The position numbers were made by a program, and so were the translations under genes. Positions 1,044 to 34,934 of a DNA stretch of 35,673 nt are shown one piece after another. The notes below the pieces were generated by a model that was not told where the DNA came from, did not search any database, and saw only the letters and a program-made list of their open reading frames with translations. Each line of letters starts with the position of its first letter. Position 1 is the stretch's first letter. This stretch comes from an uncultured Methylococcaceae bacterium (GTDB taxonomy: Bacteria > Pseudomonadota > Gammaproteobacteria > Methylococcales > Methylomonadaceae), in NCBI GenBank assembly GCA_903945375.1, contig CAJAVP010000004.1:1-35673 (forward strand), given 5' to 3'.

Positions 1044-4000
1044 TTACACCAACGTCAGAACATTTGTGCCTGTGCCTGTAGCTGTACTCAAGTCAACCAA
1101 CCCAGTCAGACTTACGACCAAATCAGTACCGTTTACAAAGCTAGAACCAGCACTCATGTCTTCAACAGCATAGGTGTTACCACCGAACTGGAACCACGAG
1201 ATGTTGGCATTTGTAATTCCGTTACCCGCAGCCGCAAAATTGAGGTAATCTTGATAGACCGCAGTTGCACCCAGTGACAATTTAGCCGCTGTAAAGGTTT
1301 CAGTACCCAGATCAACAAACGATATCTTGTCTCCAGCAACAGCATCGGTGATTGTCGAGAAAATATTACCGTTGGCATTGGTCACGACACCAAAAGTATC
1401 AGTACCAGCGCCACCCGTTAATAAATCCAGACCTGCTGAACCATTGATGTTGTCATTACCCAAACCACCAAGAATCGTGTCATTGCCTGTTCCACCAGTG
1501 ATAGTGTCATTGCCATCACCGCCATCGACTGAGTTAGCGCCACTACCTGTACTGATCGTATCATTACCTGCTGAACTCAGAATCGTGTCATTGCCTGAAC
1601 CGGCTGTAATGGCATCGTCACCCGCACCACCTATCACACTCAAAGCACCAGCACCCGCACTAGTCAACGTCAAGTTTTCAGCCGTAGCATCAACCGCACC
1701 TGCAACCGCTGCATCTAATGCCGAAGCATTAACAGTCAATGGCGTCGCATAAGCACCCAACGCTAAGGTAATATCTTTACCTGCACCGCCGGCCACTGTC
1801 GCATCACCCGCATCAACAACAGTAATCACTTCAACTTTAGTCACGTTAGTAAACGTTGAAGCATCATTATCCGCTGTCAACACCAGTGTATCAACACCAG
1901 TACCGCCAGTAATAGTGGTAGCGGTATCAATATCACCCGCGTTTGCGGTCACAGTCAACGTGACATTTGCGCTATTAATGACAGAATCAGCATTTGCAGT
2001 TGAATCACCTGTCAACACAACACTGGTTGCGTTAGTGTAACCCGCACTCAACGTGAGAGTTTGATCGCCACTGCCTGAGAAATTAAACGTGGTTGGTGTC
2101 ACGTTAGCGGCCAAAGTGACTCCAAAGTCACCAACAACTTCCACGATACCAATATTAGATAAGCTGCTTAATGCGGCTGCCGTGGTGATGTTACCTGCAA
2201 TTTGCACGGTATTCGAGCCAGCACCACCGTCAATCACATCGCCGTTGAGATTTGCGCCCATGATGAACTTGTCATCACCCGCACCACCATTGAGCGTATC
2301 AAGACCGGTTCCCGCTGTAATGGTGTCATTGCCATCACCACCATCGACTGAGTTAGCTCCATTACCTGTACTGATCGTATCATTACCTGCCGAACTCAGA
2401 ATTGTATCATTGCCAGAACCGGCTGTAATGGTATCGTCACCCGCACCACCTATCACACTCAATGCACCAGCACCCGTGCTAGTCAACGTCAAGTTTTCAG
2501 CAGTAGGATCAACCGCACCTACAACCGCTGCATCTAATGCTGAGGCATTAACAGTCAATGCTGTCGCATAAGCACCCAATGCCAAGGTAATATCTTTACC
2601 TGCACCGCCAGCCACTGTCGTATCGCCACCGTCCACAACAGTCACAACATCCACTTTAGTAACTAGAGTGAAATCGGACGTGCCGTTATTCGCTGTCAAC
2701 TGCATTGTGTCGGTTGCCGTCGTACCGCCCGTGATCGTCGTAGTTGCGTCAATATCATCCGCATTAGCAATAACGGTCAACGCGACATTAGCCGCGTTAT
2801 TCACCGAGTCATCATTACCAGCATTGTCACCAGTCAATACGACGCTGGTTGCATTCGTATAACCCGTGTTCAAAGTCAGTGCTTGAGTACCACTATCACT
2901 GAAATCAAACGTGGTTGCAGCGACATTTGCCGCTAATGTTACTGCTATACTGCCGTCGACTTCTAATGTACTGATATTGCTTACACCACCCATTACCGTT
3001 GCACTAGCAATGGCTGAGGATACTTGTAAAACGTTTGTACCCGTTCCACCATCAATCGTATCAGTACTGGCTAAGTTACCAGCCATCACAAAACGATCAT
3101 CACCATTGCCGCCTTTCAAGGTATCGATTGCAATGCCGCTAGTAATCGTATCATTACCGTCACCACCATCTATTGAGTTGTTTCCGTTACCACCATCAAT
3201 TAAATCATTACCCGCTGCACCCAAGATGGTGTCACTGCCTGATCCAGAAGTAATAGCATCGTTACCCGCACCACCTATCACACTCAACGGACCAGCACCC
3301 GTGCTAGTCAACGTCAAGTTTTCAGCCGTAGTATCCGTTGCTGTTGCAAGCGCTGCATCTAATGCCGAGGCATTAACAGTCAATGCTGTCGCATAAGCAC
3401 CCAATGTCAAGGTAATATCTTTACCTGCTGTTGCGGTCGCATCGCCACCGTCCACAACAGTCACAACATCCACTTTAGTAACAGCAGTGAAATCGGACGT
3501 GCCGTTATTCGCTGTCAACTGCATTGTGTCGGTTGCCGTACCGCCCGTGATCGTCGTGCTTGCGTCAATATCATCCGCATTGGCAATAACGGTCAATGCG
3601 ACATTAGCCGCGTTATTCACCGAATCATCATTACCAGCATTGTCACCGGTCAATACGACGCTGGTTGCATTCGTATAACCTGTGTTCAAAGTCAAAGCTT
3701 GAGTACCGGTATCACTGAAATCAAACGTGGTTGGGGTCACATTAGAAGCCAAAACAACGGTATTACTTCCATCGATTTTTAAGGTACCAAAATTGGTCAA
3801 CGTACCCAATGCCGCTGCATTAGGCACTGAAGTATCTAATTCCAAGGTATTGATTCCCGTGCCACCATCAGCAACAACACCAACCAAACTACCTGACATC
3901 ACAATCCGATCGTCACCCGCACCACCGGAGAGGGTATCAGTTCCTGTGCTGCTGATGATCGTGTCATTACCATCGCCACCATCAATTGAATCGTTACCAG

Positions 4001-7000
4001 TGCCACTGTTGATGCTATCGTCACCGGCACCACCGAAGATGGTGTTTGCACCATTGCCAGCACTAATCGTGTCATTGCCATCACCACCCACCAACGAATC
4101 CGCAGCCGAACCTGAGGTGATAGAGTCTTTACCAGCACCACCATCTACTGTTATCGCCGCATTTCCACCGACAATAATGTCGTCTCCGGCTTCTGCATTA
4201 ACCGTTGTCGCCACAGGACCAGAAGACAAAATATGGTCGTTGCCCGCACCGGCAGCAACTGTTAGTGCCGCTGTGTGCTTGCCTACATCAATTTTGTCAT
4301 TACCAGAACCGGTTTGAATGCTGGTGGTATTCACGTTATCGCCATAAGAATCAGTTCCTGTTGTAGGAGTCGATGCAACCCAAGTGCCGCTTTTGTCAAT
4401 AACCAAATCAAGACTAGAATTCGACGCATCTAGGTTTTCAAAACTGGCGACGCTAGTTGCTGTGTTGCCAGTAGCAGATTTAAATGCTTGCAAGCTTGAT
4501 ACGCTCAGATCAATACCTGATAAGGTTGCTGAGTTAGTGTTAGGAATCACCAATGTATCGTTATCTGCACCACCGGTTATGGCATTTTCACTACCGTTGA
4601 AGGTAATTGTGTCATTGCCTGCATCACCACTGATGACATCTGCACCGCCACCACCGTTGATGGTATCGTTACCATTACCACCAGACAGTGTTTCAGCTCC
4701 GTTAGAGCCGATCAAGTAGTCAGGACCTGTCGTACCACCTAACTGAGTACTAACACTCAAAGTCACTGTATTAGACGAGGTTGCGCCTTGACTGTCCGTA
4801 ATGGTGTAGTTAAATGTTACAGGTGCACCCGTTGCCGATCCAAATCCAGGCGTAGAGGTAAAATAGATACTTTTACCATCGCTAGCGATTTCAACTAAAC
4901 CACCAGCACCAGGCTGAGAAACTGCCGTAACAGTTGTTGGATCATCACCATAGGCATCATTTTTCAAAACCAGTATCTGCGTACTTTGACCCGATAACAC
5001 AACATGCTTGGCCGGATCAACCAAATGTGTGGCTGGATCGACGTAAACAGCGGCGTTATTGTCATCAGCATTCGCGACCGGCACACCGTTTTTCGTAACA
5101 ATATCAAAGGTTGTAGATGCAGATAAGTTAGGCGTACCGTTGTCGGTTGCTGTTACGGTTACTGATTTAGTACCAATTGCCGCAACACCTACACCTATGT
5201 TTGGATCAATAACAGAGATAACACCTGTTGAAGAATTCAATGTTAAACCAGATGGCAACGCGGTGCTGGTGTATGTCAACGTATTGTTTTCAACATCCTT
5301 AAAAGCAACTGACGTGTCTAAGGTAAAGCTAGCACCCTGTTCTGCATTTTGAGCTGCAATAGGTGTTACAACTGGCCCATCATTGACAGCAGCCAAGTTT
5401 AAGCTAGCTGTCGTTGCAACAGTCACCGTACCATCGGATATAGTTACATTGAAATCAACTTGACCATTGTAATTTGTGGATGGTTTAAAGGTGAACGTAC
5501 CATCGTTATTGTTGGTGATTATCCCATTAGACGCATCAAGTAAAGTAAGACCACTTACCGTAAGCGTGTCTGTACCGTCAATATCCGTAGCATTTGCCAA
5601 AATATCAGATGATTTAATAATGTAATCATTGTCTTCAGTTCCCGCTGCTAAGGTCGTTGCCGTTGCTGTCGGTGCATCATTGACTGGAGCAATGGTCAAA
5701 TTGACTGTTTGTGTCGTTTTGCCACCTAAACCGTCGTCCGCAGTCACAACAAAGCTATCTGCGCCATTGTAATTTGCATTTGGAGTGTAATTGAATGTGC
5801 CGCTCGTTGCGCCAGCAGTTACTGTACCGTGTGCCGCTGAACCAGCCGTGTATGTTAAAGTGTCACTATTTACGTCGGTCGCTGCTACTGTAACGACTGC
5901 TACCGTGTCTTCCGTTGCACTCACTGCTTGAGTTGTCGCTGCAAAAGCCGGTGCGACGTTATCTAAGCTAGTGTCGTTAATTTTTACATCACTCACTAAA
6001 TTAAGATCTAACACTCTAACACTCATTGTTTGAGTGCCTTCAGTTTTGTGGTCAGCTGCTACATCTAATGTAATTGTTGCTGCACCACCTTCATCTGTAG
6101 TGAAAATATTCAGTAATGAGTTGCCAACACCGTTGCTATTGTCTTTTAAATCGCTGCTATCAATGCCCGTTCCAGAAACATAATAAGCATATTGGGTATT
6201 AGCACGTGCATGCGTAACATCTAAAGTAACTGATTGACCTTCGTCAACAGACACCTCCGCACTTACTAAAGTTGGGGTATTAACGACTTGATCTATTTTG
6301 CCAGAGCTCAGTAAGCTAGTAATTTGACCCGTTCTGTAACCGTTTGCATCAGCTAACGTTACAATCACAGTATCATCAACTGATAACTTTGCGACATAAG
6401 CAGGATTCATAGCCTGTGTAGCTGTCAATCTAATTGGGGTTATATTATCTTTTGAGTTGATCGAATCAATTTTAGAATCAGCTAACAGTGCAGCTAATTT
6501 ATTGTTCAAGTTAATACTGCTGTTATCAACAACGCTTATTTTGTCTGTAGCTGATAATTTGGCCATATTCTTAGGCGTAGTTTGAGCGACAGTTAACTCA
6601 AGCGGACTAACCAAACTGCTATTAGCGGCGATAATGCCGTCAATTTTTACATCAGCCAACAAATTAGCAAGGTTTGCTTGAATTTTGGCGGTGGCATCAC
6701 TAACAACAATCATGTCCCCTAAATTCAACTTCGCCATGTTTGCTAATTCTTTGTATTGATCAGCCGTAAGTGCCAGTTGTACAGAGTTTTGTGAAGAGTC
6801 AATGTTATCTACTTTGGGACTAGCCAATAAAGTCGCCAAGTTTTTTTGAAGGTCTGAGCTAGTACCGGTGACAGTAATTAAGTCATTCGCAGCTAATTTA
6901 TCCAATTTGGTCGTACCAAGCGAAATACTTAATTGAGCAACGCTAACTTTGATTTCGCCACCGTCTGTTGAGTCTATCGAATCAACTTTTAAGTCACTTA

Positions 7001-7121
7001 ATAGTGAACCAATGACGGCTTGAATATTTGCACTTGTGTCACTGACGGTTACTACATCCGCTGCAGTCAGTGTTGCTTTCGCAGCTTTATAATCAGCTAC
7101 TGATTTACTTATAGTGGCCAT
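1044..7121 (-). CDS. Giant RTX/S-layer-like surface protein with cadherin-like domains
   Basis: A 2025-residue protein with no Sec signal peptide, which fits export by a type I system using a C-terminal signal (inference; no T1SS genes are in the window). Approximate order: residues 1-282, four to five degenerate ~60-residue repeats of the type 'VSDTSANIQ...LL...KVDSID......LT..Q'; 283-390, a beta domain; 390-790, four cadherin-like or Ig-like domains (VNDAPTATATT, DGPVVTPIAAQ, YNGADSFVVTADD); 794-850 and about 945-1085, RTX nonapeptides (GGNGNDTI, GGAGDD) that bind calcium; about 1087-1890, three tandem ~273-residue modules, each a beta-rich segment (TTFDFSDTGTQALTLNTGYT) closed by RTX repeats; 1895-2025, a C-terminal region of the kind found in secreted RTX/S-layer proteins. 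The ATG at 7121 has an AGGAT site upstream. The likely role is an S-layer or giant adhesin. The composition (A, T, D, N, G; almost no C) fits an extracellular protein. Confidence 0.85.
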   Translation of the reverse strand: MATISKSVADYKAAKATLTAADVVTVSDTSANIQAVIGSLLSDLKVDSIDSTDGGEIKVSVAQLSISLGTTKLDKLAANDLITVTGTSSDLQKNLATLLASPKVDNIDSSQNSVQLALTADQYKELANMAKLNLGDMIVVSDATAKIQANLANLLADVKIDGIIAANSSLVSPLELTVAQTTPKNMAKLSATDKISVVDNSSINLNNKLAALLADSKIDSINSKDNITPIRLTATQAMNPAYVAKLSVDDTVIVTLADANGYRTGQITSLLSSGKIDQVVNTPTLVSAEVSVDEGQSVTLDVTHARANTQYAYYVSGTGIDSSDLKDNSNGVGNSLLNIFTTDEGGAATITLDVAADHKTEGTQTMSVRVLDLNLVSDVKINDTSLDNVAPAFAATTQAVSATEDTVAVVTVAATDVNSDTLTYTAGSAAHGTVTAGATSGTFNYTPNANYNGADSFVVTADDGLGGKTTQTVNLTIAPVNDAPTATATTLAAGTEDNDYIIKSSDILANATDIDGTDTLTVSGLTLLDASNGIITNNNDGTFTFKPSTNYNGQVDFNVTISDGTVTVATTASLNLAAVNDGPVVTPIAAQNAEQGASFTLDTSVAFKDVENNTLTYTSTALPSGLTLNSSTGVISVIDPNIGVGVAAIGTKSVTVTATDNGTPNLSASTTFDIVTKNGVPVANADDNNAAVYVDPATHLVDPAKHVVLSGQSTQILVLKNDAYGDDPTTVTAVSQPGAGGLVEIASDGKSIYFTSTPGFGSATGAPVTFNYTITDSQGATSSNTVTLSVSTQLGGTTGPDYLIGSNGAETLSGGNGNDTINGGGGADVISGDAGNDTITFNGSENAITGGADNDTLVIPNTNSATLSGIDLSVSSLQAFKSATGNTATSVASFENLDASNSSLDLVIDKSGTWVASTPTTGTDSYGDNVNTTSIQTGSGNDKIDVGKHTAALTVAAGAGNDHILSSGPVATTVNAEAGDDIIVGGNAAITVDGGAGKDSITSGSAADSLVGGDGNDTISAGNGANTIFGGAGDDSINSGTGNDSIDGGDGNDTIISSTGTDTLSGGAGDDRIVMSGSLVGVVADGGTGINTLELDTSVPNAAALGTLTNFGTLKIDGSNTVVLASNVTPTTFDFSDTGTQALTLNTGYTNATSVVLTGDNAGNDDSVNNAANVALTVIANADDIDASTTITGGTATDTMQLTANNGTSDFTAVTKVDVVTVVDGGDATATAGKDITLTLGAYATALTVNASALDAALATATDTTAENLTLTSTGAGPLSVIGGAGNDAITSGSGSDTILGAAGNDLIDGGNGNNSIDGGDGNDTITSGIAIDTLKGGNGDDRFVMAGNLASTDTIDGGTGTNVLQVSSAIASATVMGGVSNISTLEVDGSIAVTLAANVAATTFDFSDSGTQALTLNTGYTNATSVVLTGDNAGNDDSVNNAANVALTVIANADDIDATTTITGGTTATDTMQLTANNGTSDFTLVTKVDVVTVVDGGDTTVAGGAGKDITLALGAYATALTVNASALDAAVVGAVDPTAENLTLTSTGAGALSVIGGAGDDTITAGSGNDTILSSAGNDTISTGNGANSVDGGDGNDTITAGTGLDTLNGGAGDDKFIMGANLNGDVIDGGAGSNTVQIAGNITTAAALSSLSNIGIVEVVGDFGVTLAANVTPTTFNFSGSGDQTLTLSAGYTNATSVVLTGDSTANADSVINSANVTLTVTANAGDIDTATTITGGTGVDTLVLTADNDASTFTNVTKVEVITVVDAGDATVAGGAGKDITLALGAYATPLTVNASALDAAVAGAVDATAENLTLTSAGAGALSVIGGAGDDAITAGSGNDTILSSAGNDTISTGSGANSVDGGDGNDTITGGTGNDTILGGLGNDNINGSAGLDLLTGGAGTDTFGVVTNANGNIFSTITDAVAGDKISFVDLGTETFTAAKLSLGATAVYQDYLNFAAAGNGITNANISWFQFGGNTYAVEDMSAGSSFVNGTDLVVSLTGLVDLSTATGTGTNVLTLV
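1430..3880 (-). repeat. Three tandem ~820-bp coding repeats in the surface-protein gene
   Basis: The same landmark (the codons for NVTPTTFDFSD/NVAATTFDFSD) occurs near 3727, 2911 and 2089, giving periods of 816 and 822 bp (272 and 274 codons). The first two units are nearly identical at DNA level over long stretches (around 3590-3740 and 2775-2925), pointing to recent duplication. The third, C-terminal unit has diverged more. Confidence 0.85.
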
Positions 7122-15096: not shown

Positions 15097-16371
15097 ATGA
15101 GTTTTTCAACTGCATTAAGCGGATTAAATGCCGCTGCTAACAATTTAGCCGTAACTGGCAACAATATTGCCAATGCCAACACCACCGGATTTAAAAAATC
15201 GCGATCTGAATTTGTCGATATGTATGCGACCAGCATGGCGGGTATTAGTAGTTTACAAGCGGGTACCGGTGTTCGCATTGCCGAAGTTGCACAGCAGTTC
15301 AATCAAGGCAATCGAGAGTCCACAGAAAATAACTTAGATATGGCGATTAGTGGTGAGGGTTTTTTTACGCTAGCCAAAGACCCCACCAATCCAAAGCCTG
15401 ATCTGTACACGCGTGCTGGTGCGTTTATGGTTGACAAAGAGGGGTATATTGTCAATAGTCAAGGTCAATTCTTACTGGCCTATGGATCTAAAGGCACACC
15501 AGATCGCATTTCACTCAACACCGGCACCAGTAAGCCGGTGGCAACCTCTAAAATTGAATTAAGCCTTAACTTAAAAGCCGATAGTCCAATTCCAAGTGAG
15601 CCCACCTTCAGCCCTACAGACCCCAATTCATACACCTATCAAACCCCCACAACCATCTATGATTCTTTAGGTGCTTCTCATAAATTAACCACTTACTTTG
15701 TCAAATCAAGTACGGGAGATGGTAGCTGGTCAGCCCACCATTATATTACTGATGATCCAAGCAATCCCGTTTCAATTGACACCGGAGCAGACAATACAAC
15801 CTCGCCGCCAACGATTGGTACACCCGCAACATTAAGCTTTGATAGCACAGGCAAACTGAGCTCTACCAGCACGGGCAAAGAAATCATTAATTTGGCAAAA
15901 TATAAAATACCCGGGGGAGCGGCAGCAGAAATCGAAATCGAGATGAATTACTCAAACGCGACCTCCTTGGCATCTGATTTTAACGTGGATAGCTTAAAAC
16001 AAAACGGACTTGCAGCGGGTGAACTGACTGGCATTAATATTGACCCAGCCGGTGTTATTTCAGCAAAATTTAGTAATGGACAACTCACCCCACTCGGACA
16101 AGTGGTCTTAACTCGCTTCATTAATCCGCAAGGCTTAACAAAAGTGGGCGACACCAATTGGGCACAAAGTATTAGCTCAGGAACCGCTTTGACAGGCACA
16201 GCGGGTGTCGGTCGTTTTGGCGCAGTGCTGTCGAGCGCCTTAGAACAATCCAATGTGGATTTATCCACGCAATTGACCAATCTCATTATTGCTCAGCAAG
16301 CGTATCAGGCGAATGCACAAACCATTTCAACTGAAAACCAGATTATGCAAACCTTGTTAAATAAACTCTAA
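15097..16371 (+). CDS. flgE: FlgE, flagellar hook protein
   Basis: 424 residues. The N terminus ([39 protein letters not shown]) and the C terminus (LSTQLTNLIIAQQAYQANAQ, TISTENQIMQTLLNKL) form the D0 coiled coil. D1 follows with 'NNLDMAISGEGFFTL', and a D2 (FlaE-type) domain lies at about residues 149-306, with 'PTDPNSYTYQTPTTIYDSLG', 'TTYFVKSSTGDGSWSAHHYI', 'LSFDSTGKLSS' and 'EMNYSNATSLASDF'. It polymerises into the hook, the universal joint of the flagellum. The D2 domain has a clear relative inside FlgL of this same cluster (see findings). Confidence 0.97.
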   Translation: MSFSTALSGLNAAANNLAVTGNNIANANTTGFKKSRSEFVDMYATSMAGISSLQAGTGVRIAEVAQQFNQGNRESTENNLDMAISGEGFFTLAKDPTNPKPDLYTRAGAFMVDKEGYIVNSQGQFLLAYGSKGTPDRISLNTGTSKPVATSKIELSLNLKADSPIPSEPTFSPTDPNSYTYQTPTTIYDSLGASHKLTTYFVKSSTGDGSWSAHHYITDDPSNPVSIDTGADNTTSPPTIGTPATLSFDSTGKLSSTSTGKEIINLAKYKIPGGAAAEIEIEMNYSNATSLASDFNVDSLKQNGLAAGELTGINIDPAGVISAKFSNGQLTPLGQVVLTRFINPQGLTKVGDTNWAQSISSGTALTGTAGVGRFGAVLSSALEQSNVDLSTQLTNLIIAQQAYQANAQTISTENQIMQTLLNKL

Positions 16372-20846: not shown

Positions 20847-22520
20847 ATGGCAGGCATGTTAGGAATTTCGTCATCGGGTCTTATGGCTGTTCAACAGGCA
20901 TTAGATGTTACCAGTCATAATATAGCCAACGTCAATACCGATGGTTATAGCAGGCAACGTGTTGATTTTACACCAAAGTCTGCTCAATCTAACGGAGGAG
21001 GATTTATTGGTCAAGGGGTTGATGCAACCGTCAGTCGTGTTTATGATCAGTTTATTGCTAAACAGATGACCTCAACCACATCGGCTTTTTCTGAAGCGGA
21101 CACACTATCAACCTACGCTGCCCAGGTTGATAATATGGTTTCTAGCGATGCCACCAGCGTATCAGGCCCCTTAAATTCATTTTTCAATGCCGTTAATGAC
21201 GTGGCCAACGACCCCAGTTCATTAGCTGCCAGGCAAGTCATGCTTGAAGATGCCCGCTCGGTATCGCATCAATTTAATACCTTATCGACTCAGTTTGATG
21301 ACGTGCGCCAACAAACCAATAGTCAGATGGGTGCGATGCTAGATGACATCAACTCGTACACCAAAAATATTGCCGATTTAAACGATAAAATCGTATTAGC
21401 CAGCAGCCGCGCAACCGATGGGCAATTGCCTAATGATCTGCTTGACCAGCGCGATACCTTAATCAACAAAATTGCCGAAAAATTTAGCGTCACAACTCAA
21501 CCACAGCAAGACGGTAGCGTTAATTTATTTATCAGCAGTGGGCAATATTTGGTAATGGGTAATTCGGCAACTAACTTGTCGTTAGGCGACTCTACAACAG
21601 CGGGTACTGACAAAGCTATCCTAGCGGATGGTGTTGATATCACTAAACAAATTTCAGGCGGACAAGTATCCGGGCTGTTAAAATTTCAGCATACGGTACT
21701 CGATCCCGCTCAACAACAATTAGATTTGATGGCGGTTGGTTTCGCCGCTAAATTTAACGACATTCATAATGGAAACAATACAATAGATCCACTGCAAACT
21801 AAAAGCTTCGATTTAAATGGCAAGCCCGGCAAAGATTTTTTTGATGTTGGCAGTCCTACGGTAAAGGCAAGTACCGACTCGTTTGGCACGGTTAGTGCGA
21901 CTTATGATGCCACACGCATTGGGCTGCTAACGGCTGACAATTATCAACTTAACTATGATGGCAACGCGTATTCCTTAACTCGGTTGAGTGATAATACAGT
22001 CACCAACGTTACCGTCAGAGATAATCCTAATGATAGTAAGCCGATTATTGAAGGCCCTGGATTTAACATTGAAATTACCCAAGACTTAGCAGCAGGCGAT
22101 TCCTTTTTAATCAAACCCGTCAACAATGCTGCCAATAATTTAAAAAGCCTTATCGATGATCCCGCACAAATTGCCGCTTCCAGTACCGCCGCCGGAGTTC
22201 CTGGTGACAATGCCAATGCGCTAAAACTAGCCGAGCTTGCCAACACCAAGCTTATGCTGGGCGGCAACGCGAGTATTAATGATATTAATAGCCAAATGGT
22301 CGCAAAAATTGGCACCTTAGCCAACTCTGCAAAGGTCAATAGTGCAGCTCAAGAATCCCTATTTAACATGGCGAAGCAATCCAGAGAAAGTCTATCGGGT
22401 GTTAATCTCGATGAAGAAGCGGCGAATTTAATCAAATATAAGCAAGCTTACCAAGCGGCAGCTCAGGCTATATCGACCGCGAGTACATTATTTGATACCT
22501 TAATTAATGCAATGAGGTAA
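20847..22520 (+). CDS. flgK: FlgK, hook-filament junction protein 1
   Basis: 557 residues. The N terminus has 'LMAVQQALDVTSHNIANVNT' and 'DGYSRQRVDF', the conserved HAP1 start. The middle holds 'SGPLNSFFNAVNDVANDPSS', 'LLDQRDTLINKIAEKFSVTT' and 'GGQVSGLLKFQHTVLDPAQQ'. The C terminus is 'GVNLDEEAANLIKYKQAYQA' followed by the D0 helix. FlgK joins the hook to FlgL and the filament and is a client of FlgN. It lies 45 bp after flgJ and 5 bp before flgL. Confidence 0.97.
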   Translation: MAGMLGISSSGLMAVQQALDVTSHNIANVNTDGYSRQRVDFTPKSAQSNGGGFIGQGVDATVSRVYDQFIAKQMTSTTSAFSEADTLSTYAAQVDNMVSSDATSVSGPLNSFFNAVNDVANDPSSLAARQVMLEDARSVSHQFNTLSTQFDDVRQQTNSQMGAMLDDINSYTKNIADLNDKIVLASSRATDGQLPNDLLDQRDTLINKIAEKFSVTTQPQQDGSVNLFISSGQYLVMGNSATNLSLGDSTTAGTDKAILADGVDITKQISGGQVSGLLKFQHTVLDPAQQQLDLMAVGFAAKFNDIHNGNNTIDPLQTKSFDLNGKPGKDFFDVGSPTVKASTDSFGTVSATYDATRIGLLTADNYQLNYDGNAYSLTRLSDNTVTNVTVRDNPNDSKPIIEGPGFNIEITQDLAAGDSFLIKPVNNAANNLKSLIDDPAQIAASSTAAGVPGDNANALKLAELANTKLMLGGNASINDINSQMVAKIGTLANSAKVNSAAQESLFNMAKQSRESLSGVNLDEEAANLIKYKQAYQAAAQAISTASTLFDTLINAMR

Positions 22521-22525
22521 ATGAC

Positions 22526-23938
22526 ATGCGTATTTCAACATCATGGTCTAATCAAATTGAATTGAGCGCCATGCAAACCAAGCAGGCTTCATTGACCCGC
22601 ACCCAAATTGAGCTAACGGCACAAAAAAAGATATTGACAGGTGCCGACAATCCAACTGGCGCTGCTCAAATAGTCGATCTCAACCAAAATATCAGTCAAA
22701 CCAAACAATTTCAGAGCAATATTTCTACTGCTCAACAGCGCTTAGAGCTAGAAGACAGCGTGCTTAGCAATTCCGCCGATATCATGTACCGAATTAAGGA
22801 ATTGGCGGTTCAGGGACTCAATGCCACGCTATCACCAAACGATCGCAACACCATAGCGCAGGAAATGGAAGGCTTGAATAAAGACTTGCTGGGGCTTGCC
22901 AACACCAAAAATGCCAATGGCGAATATTTATTTTCAGGTTATAAAAGCTCTACGCCCGCTTTCTCGAAAGCTCAAAGTAGTACCCCAGGTGCTACAGGGG
23001 CTTATGTTTATAACGGTGACAGCCATTCTCGACTTATTCAAATTGGTTTAGATAGGCATGTTACCGATGGCGATCCAGGTATTAACGCGTTTGGTGTCCC
23101 ATCAGGCGGAAATTCCGGTACACAATCACCCGATGTACCCGCAGCGGGCAGTATCAACAACGTTTTTGAGGCGATAGACAAATTTGTCGCTGATTTAAGA
23201 GCGCCTGACAGCACACAAGGCTCAGCGGTTGCAACCAGTGCAGTCAATTTAACGGTGAATTTAAGCGCTAACACAACACCACCAAGCAGCGCCACAATTG
23301 ACCCAACAAATCCTGAGTCATACAACCATGCCAGCACGACTAAGATTTATGATGCCAATGGCAAGCAGCATGATTTAACCAGCTATTTTAGAAAAGAATC
23401 GACGGGGGACTGGACGGCATTTCATTTCATCACGGAAACACCAGGCAGCAAAAGCATACCTATTGACATAGGCGGCATCGGAACACCGCTGTCATTCGAT
23501 GCGGATGGAAAAATAACATCGCCCAGTGAGCCGGTTCAGCTGGATAGCTGGTCTCCGACTGGCGGCACTGCCGTCTCTTTGAAAATGAATTATGCGAACT
23601 CGACACAGCAAGACTCTGCTTTTGCGGTGAATAATCAAACTCAAAACGGTTCGGCCAATCCACAAAAACCTTCCACTTATTCACTGGATGATTTTGACCG
23701 ATCGTTAGAAAATATCATTACAACTCAATCGTCAGTTGGTGTACGTTTAAAGGTTCTCGATAGCCAAAAAAACATGAATGACGACTACAATCTTAATATG
23801 AAATCGGTGTTATCTAATGTACAAGACTTGGATTATGCTGAAGCCATCTCCCGATTTAATTTAGAAAATGTTTCATTACAAGCCGCGCAACAGGCTTATG
23901 CTCAGGTTAAAAAATTGTCATTATTCGACTACATTTAA
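22526..23938 (+). CDS. flgL: FlgL, hook-filament junction protein 3, with FlgE-like D2 insert
   Basis: 470 residues, longer than a typical FlgL of about 300-420. The N terminus (MRISTSWSNQ...LTAQKKILTGADNPTGAA) and C terminus (LENIITTQSSVGVRLKVLDS, 'VQDLDYAEAISRFNLENVSL', 'QAYAQVKKLSLFDYI') are ordinary FlgL. Between the helices 'VFEAIDKFVADLRAP' and 'LDDFDRSLENIITT' lies an extra segment, residues ~236-380. It reads like the FlgE D2 domain, with 'DPTNPESYNHASTTKIYDAN', 'LTSYFRKESTGDWTAFHFIT', 'LSFDADGKITS' and 'LKMNYANSTQQDSAF'. It joins FlgK to the first flagellin layer. Last gene of the cluster, convergent with the SPOR gene. Confidence 0.95.
   Translation: MRISTSWSNQIELSAMQTKQASLTRTQIELTAQKKILTGADNPTGAAQIVDLNQNISQTKQFQSNISTAQQRLELEDSVLSNSADIMYRIKELAVQGLNATLSPNDRNTIAQEMEGLNKDLLGLANTKNANGEYLFSGYKSSTPAFSKAQSSTPGATGAYVYNGDSHSRLIQIGLDRHVTDGDPGINAFGVPSGGNSGTQSPDVPAAGSINNVFEAIDKFVADLRAPDSTQGSAVATSAVNLTVNLSANTTPPSSATIDPTNPESYNHASTTKIYDANGKQHDLTSYFRKESTGDWTAFHFITETPGSKSIPIDIGGIGTPLSFDADGKITSPSEPVQLDSWSPTGGTAVSLKMNYANSTQQDSAFAVNNQTQNGSANPQKPSTYSLDDFDRSLENIITTQSSVGVRLKVLDSQKNMNDDYNLNMKSVLSNVQDLDYAEAISRFNLENVSLQAAQQAYAQVKKLSLFDYI
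23231..23665 (+). other. FlgE D2-like domain inside flgL
   Basis: This segment of flgL codes for about 145 residues that align in order with FlgE residues ~149-306 encoded at ~15541-16014. Paired landmarks (FlgE / FlgL): PTDPNSY / PTNPESY, TTIYDSLGASHKLTTYF / TKIYDANGKQHDLTSYF, STGDGSWSAHHYIT / STGD-WTAFHFIT, LSFDSTGKL / LSFDADGKI, MNYSNATS / MNYANSTQ. The flanking FlgL sequence is uninterrupted FlgL, so this is a domain insertion rather than an annotation artefact. Confidence 0.85.
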
Positions 23939-26503: not shown

Positions 26504-27637
26504 ATGTGTTATTTGTTAGTCGTTGCCAGCTCCGGCCGAATGTTGGCACAAGCCGCTAAAAACCACGGCTATCCGGTATTGGTAATTGATTTATTTGCGG
26601 ATCAGGACACCCAAGTTTATGCGAGCGATGTCATTAAAGTACCGTCTTTGGCAGAAGAGCAGATAGCAAGGGCATGGGCATTCTTAAGCAAGAAATATCC
26701 CATTCGCCAAGCCATTTATGGCAGTGGCTTAGAATATTATCCAGATAGTCTAATTTTTTTATCACAGCGATTACTGTTATTAGGCAATACACCTGAGGTA
26801 TTTGCTAGATTACAGAATAAAGTGGATTTTTTTGCGGTTTTGTCCGCACTGCACATTCCCTATCCGGCGGTGTCATTCAAGCCGCCGACTTCGCCAGGAA
26901 ATTGGCTGCTTAAACCCAGGCAAGGTCAAGGTGGTTTGGGCATTAAACCCTATCGAGCGCAAGACGTACCCGCGATGGGCGATTACTGGCAACGCTATCA
27001 GCCCGGGACGCCACAATCCGTCTTATTTCTTGCCAATACTCAGCACGCTTACGTGATTGGCTTTAATACGCAGTGGACTGTGCCATTGGATAATGAGCAA
27101 CCCTTTATTTTTTCAGGCATCATCAACAGCAGCACACTAACGCCTGCCTTAAAATCTCTATTACATGAGACGCTACAAAAACTCGTTCCGGCATTTGGGC
27201 TGAAGGGCTTAAATTCAATGGATTTTATCCAACATGGCGAAGTCATTTATGTTTTAGAAATCAATCCACGTTTACCCGCAAGTATGCAGCTTTATGAAGC
27301 GCCATTATTGCAACAGCACATTGAAGCTTGCCAAGGCAATTTACCCAATAAACCCTATCAACAAACCGATGTTTGCGGCTACCAAATCATTTACGCGCCA
27401 CAAGATGGCAAAATACCCCATACAATGTATTGGCCTAAAGGCTGTGTTGATTTACCTCCGACTGGAGTTTGCTATCGCAAAACACAGCCTATTTGCAGTA
27501 TGATTGCTCGCCATAACAGCCCGGAGCGTGTGCTTTGGGAATTGCAGCGCATACAACAACAACTTTTCAATCAACTTAATCTAGGTTCAGCTTTATGCAA
27601 TACACAGCAAGCGTCAACACACTTTCTCAACCCTTAG
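26504..27637 (+). CDS. ATP-grasp protein linked to tetrahydromethanopterin genes
   Basis: 377 residues with an ATP-grasp fold: an N-terminal Rossmann-like pre-ATP domain ([27 protein letters not shown]), an ATP-binding segment with '[19 protein letters not shown]', and the C-terminal metal-binding motif '[20 protein letters not shown]' (about residues 250-256). Such enzymes join an acid to an amine or thiol via an acyl phosphate. Bacteria with H4MPT-linked C1 transfer often carry an ATP-grasp gene near mch (called orf17 in Methylobacterium), thought to act in making the cofactor; that role for this gene is inferred from position. Its 3' end overlaps mch by 43 bp, so translation is probably coupled. 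An AAAAGGAAA site lies before the ATG. Confidence 0.8.
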
Positions 27638-28578
27638 TCAAGCAACTGATAAATAACGCGGATCAATATCGACTTGATATTCAAACCTTGGCTAATGGCA
27701 GCACGATTATCGATGCTGGCATTAACGCACCCGGTGGCCTAGAAGCCGGACGAATTATCACTGAAATTTGTCTAGGCGGCATGGGCACGGTCTCTATTTC
27801 GCAAAGCACCTACACCGAGCACTGGCCGTTGACCGTTAATGTCCACACCAGTAATCCAGTTTTGGCGTGCTTAGGTAGTCAATATGCCGGCTGGAGCTTA
27901 TCGCACGATAAATATTATGCCTTAGGTTCAGGCCCTGCACGTGCGCTGGCAACAAAAAGCAAAGAAGGCATCGTCTCGCCTGTTGAGGAACTGTATAAAG
28001 AATTGGCGTATCAAGATCAGTCTGACCAAACCGTGTTGGTGATTGAAAACGATAAATTACCGCCGTTAGAAATTATTGAGAAAGTCGCTGCCGCCTGTTC
28101 GGTCTCACCTGAGCATTTGACCATTATTGTTACGCCAACCAGCAGCCTAGCGGGCTGCGTTCAAGTCGTCGGTCGCGTGTTAGAAGTCGCCATGCACAAA
28201 GCCCATGCGTTGCATTTTCCCTTAGAGCATATCATTGATGGCTCCGGCAGTGCGCCCATTTGCCCGCCTCACCCTAAATTTGTGCAAGCTATGGGACGGA
28301 CAAATGATGCGATTTTGTTTGCAGGCTTAGTGCATCTTTTTGTGAAAGGCTCTGATGAGGCCGCTGAAAAATTAGCCCACGAATTACCCAGCTCGACCTC
28401 GAAAGATTATGGCAAACCTTTTGCCCAAATCTTCAAAGAATATGAATACGATTTCTTTAAAATTGATGCCATGTTATTTAGCCCCGCCCGTGTGATTGTC
28501 ACCGCCGTAGAGTCCGGCAATAGCTTCCGTGCAGGACACTTAGACAATGCCTTGTTAAATTTATCGTTTGGCAGCTAA
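27595..28578 (+). CDS. mch: Methenyltetrahydromethanopterin cyclohydrolase
   Basis: 327 residues, the normal Mch length. It catalyses reversible hydrolysis of N5,N10-methenyl-H4MPT to N5-formyl-H4MPT, a cytoplasmic step in formaldehyde oxidation by methylotrophs. Recognised segments: '[20 protein letters not shown]' with '[17 protein letters not shown]' near the N terminus, '[18 protein letters not shown]', '[18 protein letters not shown]', and the C-terminal '[20 protein letters not shown]' with '[15 protein letters not shown]'. The ATG lies inside the upstream ATP-grasp gene, with AGGTT about 9 nt before it. A terminator hairpin follows the stop codon. Confidence 0.96.
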
Positions 28579-32108: not shown

Positions 32109-34934
32109 ATGCTACCCATTGAAACCCTAAGAAATAACGCCGCTAAATTTGCCAAAGAATTTGCAGATTCCACTTACGAAATGGGTGACGCACAGGATTT
32201 TATGCGGGGTTTATGTGCTATTTTCGGGCTAAATCATCGACGTTTTGTTTCGTTTGAAAAACGGGTTAAAAAACTAGGCAACAAACAAGGGCGTATTGAT
32301 GGTTTTATTCCCAGTTTGTTACTGATTGAAATGAAATCGGCGGGCAAAGATTTGGATAAAGCCTATCAGCAAGCAACAGACTATTTTCACCACCTAAAAG
32401 ATGAAGAACTACCTCGCTGTGTATTAATCAGCGACTTTCACAATCTGCATTTATACGATTTAGAGACCCGCGCCGAGCCGTTAAAAATCAAACTGGCTGA
32501 ATTACCGCAACACATTGAACAGTTTAAATTCTTAGCAGGTTATGAAAAACTTGCCATTGAAAAACAGGAGCGCATCAACAAAGAAGCCGCTGAAAAAATG
32601 GCAGATTTGCACGATGCCATAAAAATCACAGGTTATAACGGTAGAGACTTAGAAAACTATTTAGTGCGCTTACTGTTTTGTCTATTTGCCGAGGACACTG
32701 GCTTGTTTGGTGAAAATGGCAAGTTTTTAGATTATTTGCAAAACCATACCAAAGCGGACGGCACAGATTTACACGAAAAACTAGACACCCTGTTTAAAAC
32801 CCTCAATCGCGCCCCAGAAAAACGTCTAAAAAATCTACCTGAACATTTAGCCGACTTCCCGTATATCAACGGTTCGTTATTTGAAGGCGCGTTAGACGAT
32901 TGTTATTTTGATGAATCGGCGCGTAATACTCTGATTGAATGCGCTGAACTAGACTGGAGCGACATTAGCCCCGCTATTTTTGGCTCATTATTTCAAGCCA
33001 TCATGCACTTTGATGATGAAATGGGCAAAGGCAAAACCAAAAAACGTCGTGAGTTTGGCGCACATTACACCAGCGAAGAAAACATATTAAAAACCATCAA
33101 TCCCTTGTTTATGGATGATTTACGCGCTGAATTTTCCAAAATAGGCAAAAGTAAGCCTAAATTAGCCGTATTCCATAAAAAATTAGCCGAATTGAATTTT
33201 TTTGACCCTGCCTGTGGTTGCGGTAATTTTTTAATTATCGCTTATCGCGAATTGCGCTTGTTGGAATTGGATATTATCAAGGCGCAATTCGGCAAATCAG
33301 TCACGGCACAGCTTGATGTTGATACCCTGATTTTATGCAACGTGCATCAATTCCACGGCATTGATATAGATGAAAGCGCGGTGCATATTGCAACACTGGC
33401 AATGTGGCTGGTGGATCATCAAATGAACATAAAAGTGCAGGAACTGGGGCTGTATTACAACCGCATTCCCTTGGTAAAAAAAGCCAATATTGTTTGTGCC
33501 AATGCCTTACAAATAGACTGGTCGGATGTGATTGCGCCTGAGCGGTGCAGTTTTATTATGGGCAATCCGCCGTTTGTGGGTTACAGCTACCAAAACAAAA
33601 CGCAAAAAATCGATTTAGCCAAAGTGTTCAATGGCATGAGCGGCGCAGGCGTGTTGGATTATGTCGCCGCTTGGCATATTACCGCCGCTCGTTACATCCA
33701 AACGAATCCCAACATCCCCGTAGCCTTTGTGTCCACCAACAGCCTCACGCAAGGCGAACAAGTGGCGATTTTATGGACAGAATTATTAAAGCTCGGCATT
33801 AAGCTTCACTTTGCCCACCGCACCTTTCGCTGGAGCAACGAAGGCAAAGGCGTAGCAGCGGTGCATTGCGTGATTATGGGCTTTTCTGTAGGTGCGAATT
33901 CATTCGCACTTTCTGGCGATGAGGATGCGAATAAATTCGCACCTACAATTTGTCGGTTATTTGCTTATGGCGATGACATTACCGGTCAACCGACTGAATT
34001 AAAAGCCCAACAAATCAATCCTTATTTAGCCGATGCGCCGACAGTTTTGATTAATAAGCGTCGCAAACCGTTAAACTCAAACACGCTTGAAATGACGAAA
34101 GGAAGCCAACCAACAGACGGTGGAAATTTATTGTTATCGCAGGAAGAAGCCGACGAAATACGCAAAAACGACCCGATTGCGGCACAATACATTCGCACAT
34201 TTTTAGGCGCAGAAGAGTTTATCAACAATTTGCCGCGTTTTTGTTTGTGGCTCAAAAACAGCACGGGGACTGACCGCACCAAATCGCCAGAAATTAAAAA
34301 ACGTATGGAAGCTGTCAAAAAAATGCGTTTAGCCAGCCCGAAAAGTCCCACTCAAAAACTAGCCGAAACGCCTTATTTATTTGGCGAAATCCGCCAAACT
34401 GACCAACCGTATTTGCTAATTCCTCGCGTTTCGTCAGAGCAACGAAAATTTGTGCCGATTGGTTATTTTGAATCGAATGTCATTTGTGGCGATGCTAATT
34501 TCATGTTGCCAAACGCGAGCCTGTACGAGTTTGGTTTGCTTTGTTCAACATTTCATAACGCTTGGATGCGTGCAGTTTGCGGACGTTTAGAAAGTCGTTA
34601 TCGTTATTCAAACACGATTGTTTATAACAATTTTCCGTTTCCTGTTGACGTGAAACCAGCGACAAAAAAGAAAATCGAAGACGCGGCGCAAGCGGTTTTA
34701 GATGCGCGAATCATTGAAGAAAAACGTTGTGAAGTAGCGGGGCAAAAATGTTCGTTGGCGACAATGTACGCGGCAAACAATATGCCCGAAGAATTAGTAA
34801 AGGCGCATAAAAAATTAGATGCCGCTGTTGATTCCGCTTACAGCTTCACAGGTAAAAAAGACGACGCGGCACGGGTAGCGTTTTTGTTTGAGAAATATCG
34901 GGAATGGGTTGCGCCGTTGGTGGAAAATAAATGA
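32109..34934 (+). CDS. MmeI-like single-chain restriction-modification enzyme
   Basis: 941 residues with the MmeI (type IIL/IIG) order. An N-terminal PD-(D/E)XK nuclease has D64 and E74-M-K76 in 'GRIDGFIPSLLLIEMKSAGK'. A helical linker follows (about 150-330, with 'RREFGAHYTSEENILKTI' leading into the methyltransferase). The gamma-class N6-adenine methyltransferase has motif I 'DPACGCGNF' (from D366) and motif IV 'NPPF' (486-489). A target-recognition domain (about 620-860) contains 'YLLIPRVSSEQRKFVPIGYF' and 'WMRAVCGRLESRYRYSNTIV', and a C-terminal helical region follows. One polypeptide cuts DNA and methylates one strand of its site. All key residues are present, so activity is plausible. 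A palindromic element is inserted in frame at 33887-33947. The ribosome site is weak. Confidence 0.9.
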   Translation: MLPIETLRNNAAKFAKEFADSTYEMGDAQDFMRGLCAIFGLNHRRFVSFEKRVKKLGNKQGRIDGFIPSLLLIEMKSAGKDLDKAYQQATDYFHHLKDEELPRCVLISDFHNLHLYDLETRAEPLKIKLAELPQHIEQFKFLAGYEKLAIEKQERINKEAAEKMADLHDAIKITGYNGRDLENYLVRLLFCLFAEDTGLFGENGKFLDYLQNHTKADGTDLHEKLDTLFKTLNRAPEKRLKNLPEHLADFPYINGSLFEGALDDCYFDESARNTLIECAELDWSDISPAIFGSLFQAIMHFDDEMGKGKTKKRREFGAHYTSEENILKTINPLFMDDLRAEFSKIGKSKPKLAVFHKKLAELNFFDPACGCGNFLIIAYRELRLLELDIIKAQFGKSVTAQLDVDTLILCNVHQFHGIDIDESAVHIATLAMWLVDHQMNIKVQELGLYYNRIPLVKKANIVCANALQIDWSDVIAPERCSFIMGNPPFVGYSYQNKTQKIDLAKVFNGMSGAGVLDYVAAWHITAARYIQTNPNIPVAFVSTNSLTQGEQVAILWTELLKLGIKLHFAHRTFRWSNEGKGVAAVHCVIMGFSVGANSFALSGDEDANKFAPTICRLFAYGDDITGQPTELKAQQINPYLADAPTVLINKRRKPLNSNTLEMTKGSQPTDGGNLLLSQEEADEIRKNDPIAAQYIRTFLGAEEFINNLPRFCLWLKNSTGTDRTKSPEIKKRMEAVKKMRLASPKSPTQKLAETPYLFGEIRQTDQPYLLIPRVSSEQRKFVPIGYFESNVICGDANFMLPNASLYEFGLLCSTFHNAWMRAVCGRLESRYRYSNTIVYNNFPFPVDVKPATKKKIEDAAQAVLDARIIEEKRCEVAGQKCSLATMYAANNMPEELVKAHKKLDAAVDSAYSFTGKKDDAARVAFLFEKYREWVAPLVENK
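33887..33947 (+). repeat. 61-bp palindromic element inserted in frame in the R-M gene
   Basis: The left arm (23 nt from 33887) and right arm (23 nt ending 33947) are reverse complements at 21 of 23 positions, with a 15-nt loop. Each arm also contains a smaller palindrome (GTGCGAAT/ATTCGCAC). It encodes VGANSFALSGDEDANKFAPT between 'CVIMGFS' and 'CRLFAYGDD', where MmeI-family proteins normally run on with no such segment (from memory). Confidence 0.85.

Follow-up and report, generated by a model that had tools for sequence, protein, structure and literature searches.

The proteins of the flagellar rod, hook, junction and filament have end domains in common and outer domains that are very different, and in the hook protein FlgE the D2 domain is itself inserted into D1. 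In FlgL of Xanthomonas, as described by Hong et al. (PMC6155364), a D2 domain lies between helices 3a and 3b, splitting helix 3, and resembles the D2 domain of FlgK; judging from its chain length, PDB 5ziz is probably this structure of X. campestris FlgL. In the account given of the Salmonella junction, a layer of 11 FlgK subunits separates the hook from the 11 FlgL subunits (PMC12221982). For the Shewanella junction, a preprint describes FlgL D2 as not being part of the linkages, and the same source places the D2-D2 contacts of the hook along the 6-start direction only (PMC11839096).

Here, we describe an FlgL that carries the D2 domain of a hook protein. It is encoded in the window, that is, the whole stretch of 35,673 nucleotides analysed, which comes from an uncultured Methylococcaceae bacterium, and the features referred to below are as follows.

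22526..23938, plus strand: flgL, hook-associated protein 3 of 470 aa, carrying an inserted FlgE-type D2; the translation contains Flagellin_N, FlgE_D2 and Flagellin_C
22526..23203, plus strand: N-terminal D0/D1 part of FlgL, residues 1-226, 73% identical to FlgL of the same-genus genome G001
23204..23662, plus strand: inserted segment, residues 227-379 (153 aa), missing from the seven other same-genus FlgLs found
23258..23650, plus strand: FlgE_D2 domain (PF07559), residues 245-375, Pfam E 8.8e-21, 79.4 bits in the genome search
23663..23935, plus strand: C-terminal D1/D0 part of FlgL, residues 380-470, 70% identical to G001, with Flagellin_C at 390-469
20847..22520, plus strand: flgK, hook-associated protein 1, whose D2-like domain is of the ordinary FlgK kind (Pfam FlgK_D1, flgK_1st_1)
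15097..16371, plus strand: flgE, hook protein, 424 aa, in the same operon as flgL (Pfam FlgE_D2, Flg_bb_rod, Flg_bbr_C and D1 domain)
15538..16014, plus strand: D2 region of FlgE, residues 148-306, which scored highest against the FlgL insert of all FlgE rows in the comparison

The 470-residue product belongs to the FlgL family, scoring 281 bits against the curated NCBIfam profile flagell_flgL (TIGR02550, cut-off 127.2), and both of its helical ends are present in Pfam, with Flagellin_N (PF00669) at residues 3-140 (E = 2e-21) and Flagellin_C (PF00700) at the C-terminus (E = 3.8e-6). Its gene is the last in a run of flagellar genes in which FlgD, FlgE, FlgF/G-type and FlgK products were identified with Pfam, the putative flgB, flgH, flgI and flgJ labels of further operon neighbours being assigned by position alone. 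It starts directly 3′ of flgK, an order that is identical in the same-genus genomes G001, G009, G010 and G011. Elsewhere in the window, the minus strand (1044-7121) encodes a protein of 2025 aa that combines RTX calcium-binding repeats with cadherin-like and bacterial Ig domains and is probably, from its domain content, a large secreted adhesin; an MmeI-type restriction-modification protein matched by five MmeI domain families lies at 32109-34934; and a methenyltetrahydromethanopterin cyclohydrolase (MCH, E = 1.4e-129), consistent with a methylotroph, is found at 27595-28578.

As judged from profile and pairwise comparisons, a complete FlgE D2 domain sits between the Flagellin_N and Flagellin_C parts of FlgL. 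PF07559 matched the protein at 75.3 bits (cut-off 22.7) from model position 1 to 141 of 142, the insert alone matched at E = 3.2e-22, and genome-wide there were two matches to this family, FlgE and FlgL. The ends that mark a whole FlgE, Flg_bb_rod and Flg_bbr_C, were found by the Pfam scan in FlgE and not in the window FlgL; neither was flgK_1st_1, as would be expected of an FlgK-type D2 of the Xanthomonas kind, matched in FlgL, and the same scan gave no FlgE D2 match in the flgK product. By BLASTP, residues 235-377 of FlgL aligned with residues 148-306 of the operon FlgE at 44% identity (70 of 160 columns, E = 1e-30), with identities of 40% to 47% in other alignments, and the insert sequence directly matched solved FlgE structures (9yee, E = 5.7e-11; 1wlg, E = 6.3e-10), a result that is independent of the alignments built in this study. 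A first-pass annotation had proposed from five pairs of landmark motifs that residues ~236-380 are a FlgE D2, and all five pairs were found in order in both translations. The span it gave overlaps the insert but is slightly too narrow when compared with relatives: pairwise matches to same-genus FlgLs and an alignment of 11 FlgLs set the limits at residues 227-379, nearly all of which is covered by the FlgE homology. The two flanks of this segment adjoin base to base in G001 and G011, and no more than one codon separates them in the remaining five same-genus FlgLs; both flanks are predicted to be helical, one helix ending near residue 225 and the next starting near residue 387 in the model described below. 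This agrees with the earlier proposal that the insert separates two helices that are adjacent in an ordinary FlgL. Both the identity of the domain and its insertion point are thus well supported, as is its origin within the family, which is treated below.

A FlgE D2 fold is also predicted for the insert. An alignment-free model of the whole FlgL was poor (pLDDT 36.4), and a second model, of residues 206-411, was built with an alignment of 54 FlgE D2 rows (the window FlgE and 53 from 80 genome_contigs loci) and reached a pLDDT of 86.3. This model had 22 PDB matches at E ≤ 0.001, all of them hooks or hook-containing complexes, the best being 1wlg (E = 1.8e-11). Sixteen of the 22 carry hook or FlgE in the title; the remaining six come from the junction or tip complexes 9go6 and 9u7y, and these chains appear, from their length and identity, to be FlgE. 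The agreement with hook structures is biased, and the fold evidence from this model is not independent, because its alignment consisted of FlgE D2s.

The source of the domain was sought by comparing the insert with 122 distinct FlgE D2 rows, which were left of 135 FlgE frames after five scoring below 60 bits and eight identical ones had been dropped. Its best-scoring relative was the FlgE of the same operon (107 bits, 44%), with another FlgE of the same family close behind (103 bits). When the nearest rows, 62 with the insert counted, were placed in a tree, the insert fell inside a 15-row set otherwise made up of family FlgEs (support 97/89), and when three long rows were removed it stayed inside a family set of 13 rows (95/83). 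Its exact placement is uncertain because the branch is long (0.9, and 1.09 in the reduced tree, against 0.41 for the operon FlgE): neither a grouping of the insert with its own FlgE (AU p = 0.249) nor one of the other 14 rows of the larger set to the exclusion of the insert (p = 0.338) was rejected. A recent copy or conversion from the local flgE is not visible, the longest identical DNA word shared by the two being only 9 bases, and a donor from outside the family is not favoured, the insert falling within the family FlgE D2s. The G+C content is 48.3% for the insert, 45.3% for the N-terminal part of FlgL, 43.8% for the D2 region of flgE and 35.2% for the short C-terminal part of FlgL. These comparisons make it fairly clear that the domain derives from a FlgE of this methanotroph family, and the donor may have been the flgE of the lineage itself. 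The earlier suggestion of recombination between flgE and flgL or of an older domain transfer is supported as regards a FlgE origin; the trees neither show nor reject the operon's own flgE as the donor.

The explanation that we favour, and consider likely as a whole, is that flgL acquired, on the branch of this species, an in-frame insertion of DNA for one entire FlgE D2 together with both boundary motifs. The DNA would have entered at a loop that joins two D1 helices and that holds variable FlgL D2 domains in other bacteria, and it would have come from a FlgE gene of this methanotroph family, perhaps the lineage's own. Because the FlgE D2 is itself an insertion in D1, it could sit in the FlgL loop without disturbing the core, and the chimeric FlgL would be exported and assembled through its ordinary D0/D1 parts. 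In a ring of 11 FlgL subunits, the FlgE-type domains would then point outward and form a collar, with the FlgK layer on one side and the filament on the other. The graft would most likely serve as an outer domain that is tolerated, increasing bulk and possibly providing contacts between FlgL subunits, and not as a continuation of the hook surface. The sequences show which domain this is, where it was inserted, that the nearest relatives are without it and from which family it came; we infer the expression, assembly and outward position of this protein, as well as the lack of a hook-like contact role.

The FlgL graft is not the only FlgE D2 outside a hook protein in this family. In three genomes of one genus, PF07559 matched a second time (E = 1.7e-19 to 1.9e-17) away from flgE, in frames of 433-506 aa that encode RTX-type proteins:

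L298, 1013-2314, plus strand: RTX-type protein with a FlgE D2, genome G170
L299, 779-2296, minus strand: RTX-type protein with a FlgE D2, genome G181
L300, 1074-2567, plus strand: RTX-type protein with a FlgE D2, genome G202

Judging from their translations, the neighbours of the gene in G170 look like von Willebrand-type proteins. In G174, the FlgE frame (L265, C21:31300-35000; 1029 aa) has a very long alanine- and threonine-rich stretch inside D2. The FlgE of G168, a genome of this family (L260, C1:4139200-4142000; ~624 aa), contains two tandem FlgE D2s, a duplicated hook outer domain. From the RTX-type proteins and the tandem copies, FlgE D2 has moved on more than one occasion within the family, so that its presence in an FlgL is less surprising. 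The slot is also used by others. Different inserts occupy the corresponding region in other FlgLs of the family and class, and none of nine FlgLs with such inserts matched FlgE_D2 in Pfam. In an FlgL of another family (G440; L080, C219:5053-6492), the slot matches flgK_1st_1 (E = 1e-11) and, weakly, FlgK D3 (E = 2.5e-5), and the slot of the Xanthomonas D2 appears to be equivalent to that of the window insert. A broader interpretation is that FlgE D2 is a mobile outer-surface module, doubled in the G168 hook protein, placed on the window FlgL and joined to RTX repeats in non-flagellar proteins, with the FlgL slot acting as a general outer-domain socket and the graft either bringing its own surface property or building a collar like that of the hook where the filament begins. 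We regard this interpretation as tentative and, on the present comparisons, rather doubtful.

The first-pass annotation had also proposed that the grafted domain would continue the outer surface of the hook across the junction. This idea is not supported, given the FlgK layer described in the Salmonella junction (PMC12221982) and the reduced retention of contact positions, significant at one of three thresholds. A related possibility is that the FlgE-type D2 makes 6-start D2-D2 contacts, either between FlgLs or with the layer below, and so extends the hook sheath into the junction. Hook D2 domains are described as touching along 6-start lines (PMC6874566, PMC11839096), the description of the Salmonella junction includes a small FlgL-FlgL contact of 203.6 square angstrom in the +6 direction (PMC12221982), and the insert keeps 20 of the 28 positions that are conserved in 90% of the family FlgEs. 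Each of 26 family FlgEs, in a leave-one-out comparison, kept more than this (25-28 of 27-30 conserved positions). The D2-D2 contact residues of the Salmonella hook, as given in PMC6874566, were mapped onto the insert, and FlgE conservation thresholds of 50, 70 and 90% were applied. At 70%, the insert kept 2 of the 10 contact positions, compared with 33 of the 51 others (Fisher p = 0.014); since some contact positions lie at the ends of the graft, this is no more than suggestive. The corresponding values were 5 of 15 and 45 of 79 at 50% (p = 0.157) and 2 of 7 and 18 of 24 at 90% (p = 0.067), while the FlgE of the same operon kept 8 of 10 and 42 of 51 at 70%. From these counts, the fold of the insert seems to be constrained and its hook-specific surface relaxed. 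Co-adaptation of FlgK or flagellin, judged by length alone, was rejected, no matching change being seen in the genus. FlgK, counted from the first Met of its frame, has a length of 557 here, 542 in G001, G011 and G010 and 533 in G009, and the flagellin open frame has a length of 714 in six genomes of the genus, of which five lack the graft, and 252 in G004; G003 had no match besides FlgL in this flagellin comparison. With an intervening FlgK layer, contact positions that seem poorly retained and neighbours without a matching change in length all counting against it, a hook-like contact role is improbable, and a tolerated outer domain is the reading that we retain.

With respect to the time of the gain, an FlgL match was found in 8 of 20 genomes of the genus, the window genome included, and by sequence matches and alignment the insert is missing from the other seven FlgLs. 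Those of G001, G011, G009 and G010 are 309-313 aa long, compared to 470 here, and over residues 1-226 or 1-227 they share 65-73% identity with the window FlgL. When the cores of 18 FlgLs were compared in a tree, from which the insert was excluded, the window FlgL came out as sister to those of G001 and G011 (support 92/97), both of which are without the insert. Since all seven relatives are without it, a gain on the lineage of the window is most likely, and is the simplest reading of these sequences. The long branch of the insert would fit an older acquisition, in which the FlgL of the genus ancestor already had a FlgE-type D2 that was lost elsewhere, but this is quite unlikely: the window FlgL is nested among FlgLs without an insert, several losses would be required, and 136 of 237 genomes of the family matched P0001 with no second case among the matches listed. 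An acceleration specific to FlgL was also rejected, since the core branch is fast (ratio 3.6) but FlgJ (3.5) and FlgK (4.4) are comparably fast in this lineage; the ratio for FlgI is 2.0, and the branching order of the FlgK tree differs. In G014, the FlgL (L008, C350:15464 onwards) leaves its usual frame near the C-terminus, and more C-terminal pieces match on C325.

PF07559 was searched in 201 genomes of the order, the listed places being compared by eye with those of FlgL, and genomes that had no listed FlgL place or an extra match on another contig were scanned at the level of the stretch; the domain was present in 122 of these genomes and lay within FlgL only in that of the window (G000). 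Besides the family, P0001 matched 172 of 369 genomes in a class sample, 125 of 398 in a phylum sample and 19 of 142 in another class, in sets that overlap and have different cut-offs and with inspection covering mostly the matches listed. Where the match to P0001 covers most of the region of the insert (G034, G974, G965, G968, G972, G1032, G440, G312 and G428), the FlgLs were scanned and had no FlgE D2, and none was found in those with shorter spans (G021, G036, G061, G068, G1019 and G1030). Over 308 loci, an FlgL-type N-terminus was present in 173 frames at 149 loci (some of them flagellins), both FlgL-type ends in 120 distinct frames and FlgE D2 in 163 frames. An FlgL-type N-terminus and FlgE D2 occurred together only at L002, L003 and L277, all of which are the window gene; 156 of the 163 FlgE D2 frames have FlgE ends, and four others are the three RTX-type proteins and one short fragment. 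The viral_contigs and first genome_contigs scans gave no confirmed relative, no FlgL with the domain was among the 80 of 187 loci retained from a second genome_contigs scan, and the 47 plasmid records that matched, all at <60% identity, contained no copy. A second FlgL with a FlgE D2 was thus not found in the genomes surveyed, although a divergent case in an unsampled group may have been missed. The titles and abstract openings of the top-ranking literature, a scope that leaves out most subscription journals, likewise held no description of a FlgE-type D2 in FlgL. From these comparisons, a FlgE-type D2 in FlgL appears to be new, while the filling of this slot by FlgK-like or other modules is already known from other FlgLs. 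That an assembler or binning error joined a flgE fragment of another organism into flgL is very unlikely: the graft was seen in one assembly only, the main weak point of the case, with no independent assembly found and no copy in viral_contigs, genome_contigs or plasmids (searches that may omit the genome of the window itself), its best FlgE match is only 44% identical and its G+C is 13 points above that of the FlgL C-terminal part, but both joins are in frame and at the natural D2 slot, the insert is almost wholly FlgE D2 and nothing else, its G+C is near that of the FlgL N-terminal part and flgE, and the genome is recorded as 100% complete with 0.05% contamination.

An in-frame graft of a family FlgE D2 into FlgL, carried as an outward collar, would mean that an outer domain of the hook was transferred in nature to a junction protein, and this suggests that flagellar parts are exchangeable in evolution. 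It would also provide a ready-made test of what outer domains contribute, with one domain at two places in one machine and close relatives without the second copy. The FlgLs of these relatives (G001, G011, G009 and G010) resemble the window FlgL in their D0/D1 core and in gene order next to flgK, and differ in the absence of the insert and in their shorter length. FlgL of X. campestris likewise has an extra beta domain inserted in D1 between helices 3a and 3b, but that domain is described as resembling FlgK D2 (PMC6155364), whereas the domain in the window protein is a FlgE D2. The G440 FlgL shares with it a slot module known from another axial protein, of FlgK type rather than FlgE type. The RTX-type proteins, from the same bacterial family, likewise carry a FlgE D2 in a protein other than FlgE; unlike the window FlgL, they have RTX repeats, no flagellar ends and a D2 split by a long insertion. 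The D2 of Salmonella FlgE (PF07559; PDB 1wlg, 3a69) shares with the insert its family, by profile and sequence, its predicted fold and two boundary motifs, ATS at the start and QNG at the end, and the insert differs from it in being carried by FlgL and in the alteration of several hook contact positions, for example D-S-L-G to D-A-N-G.
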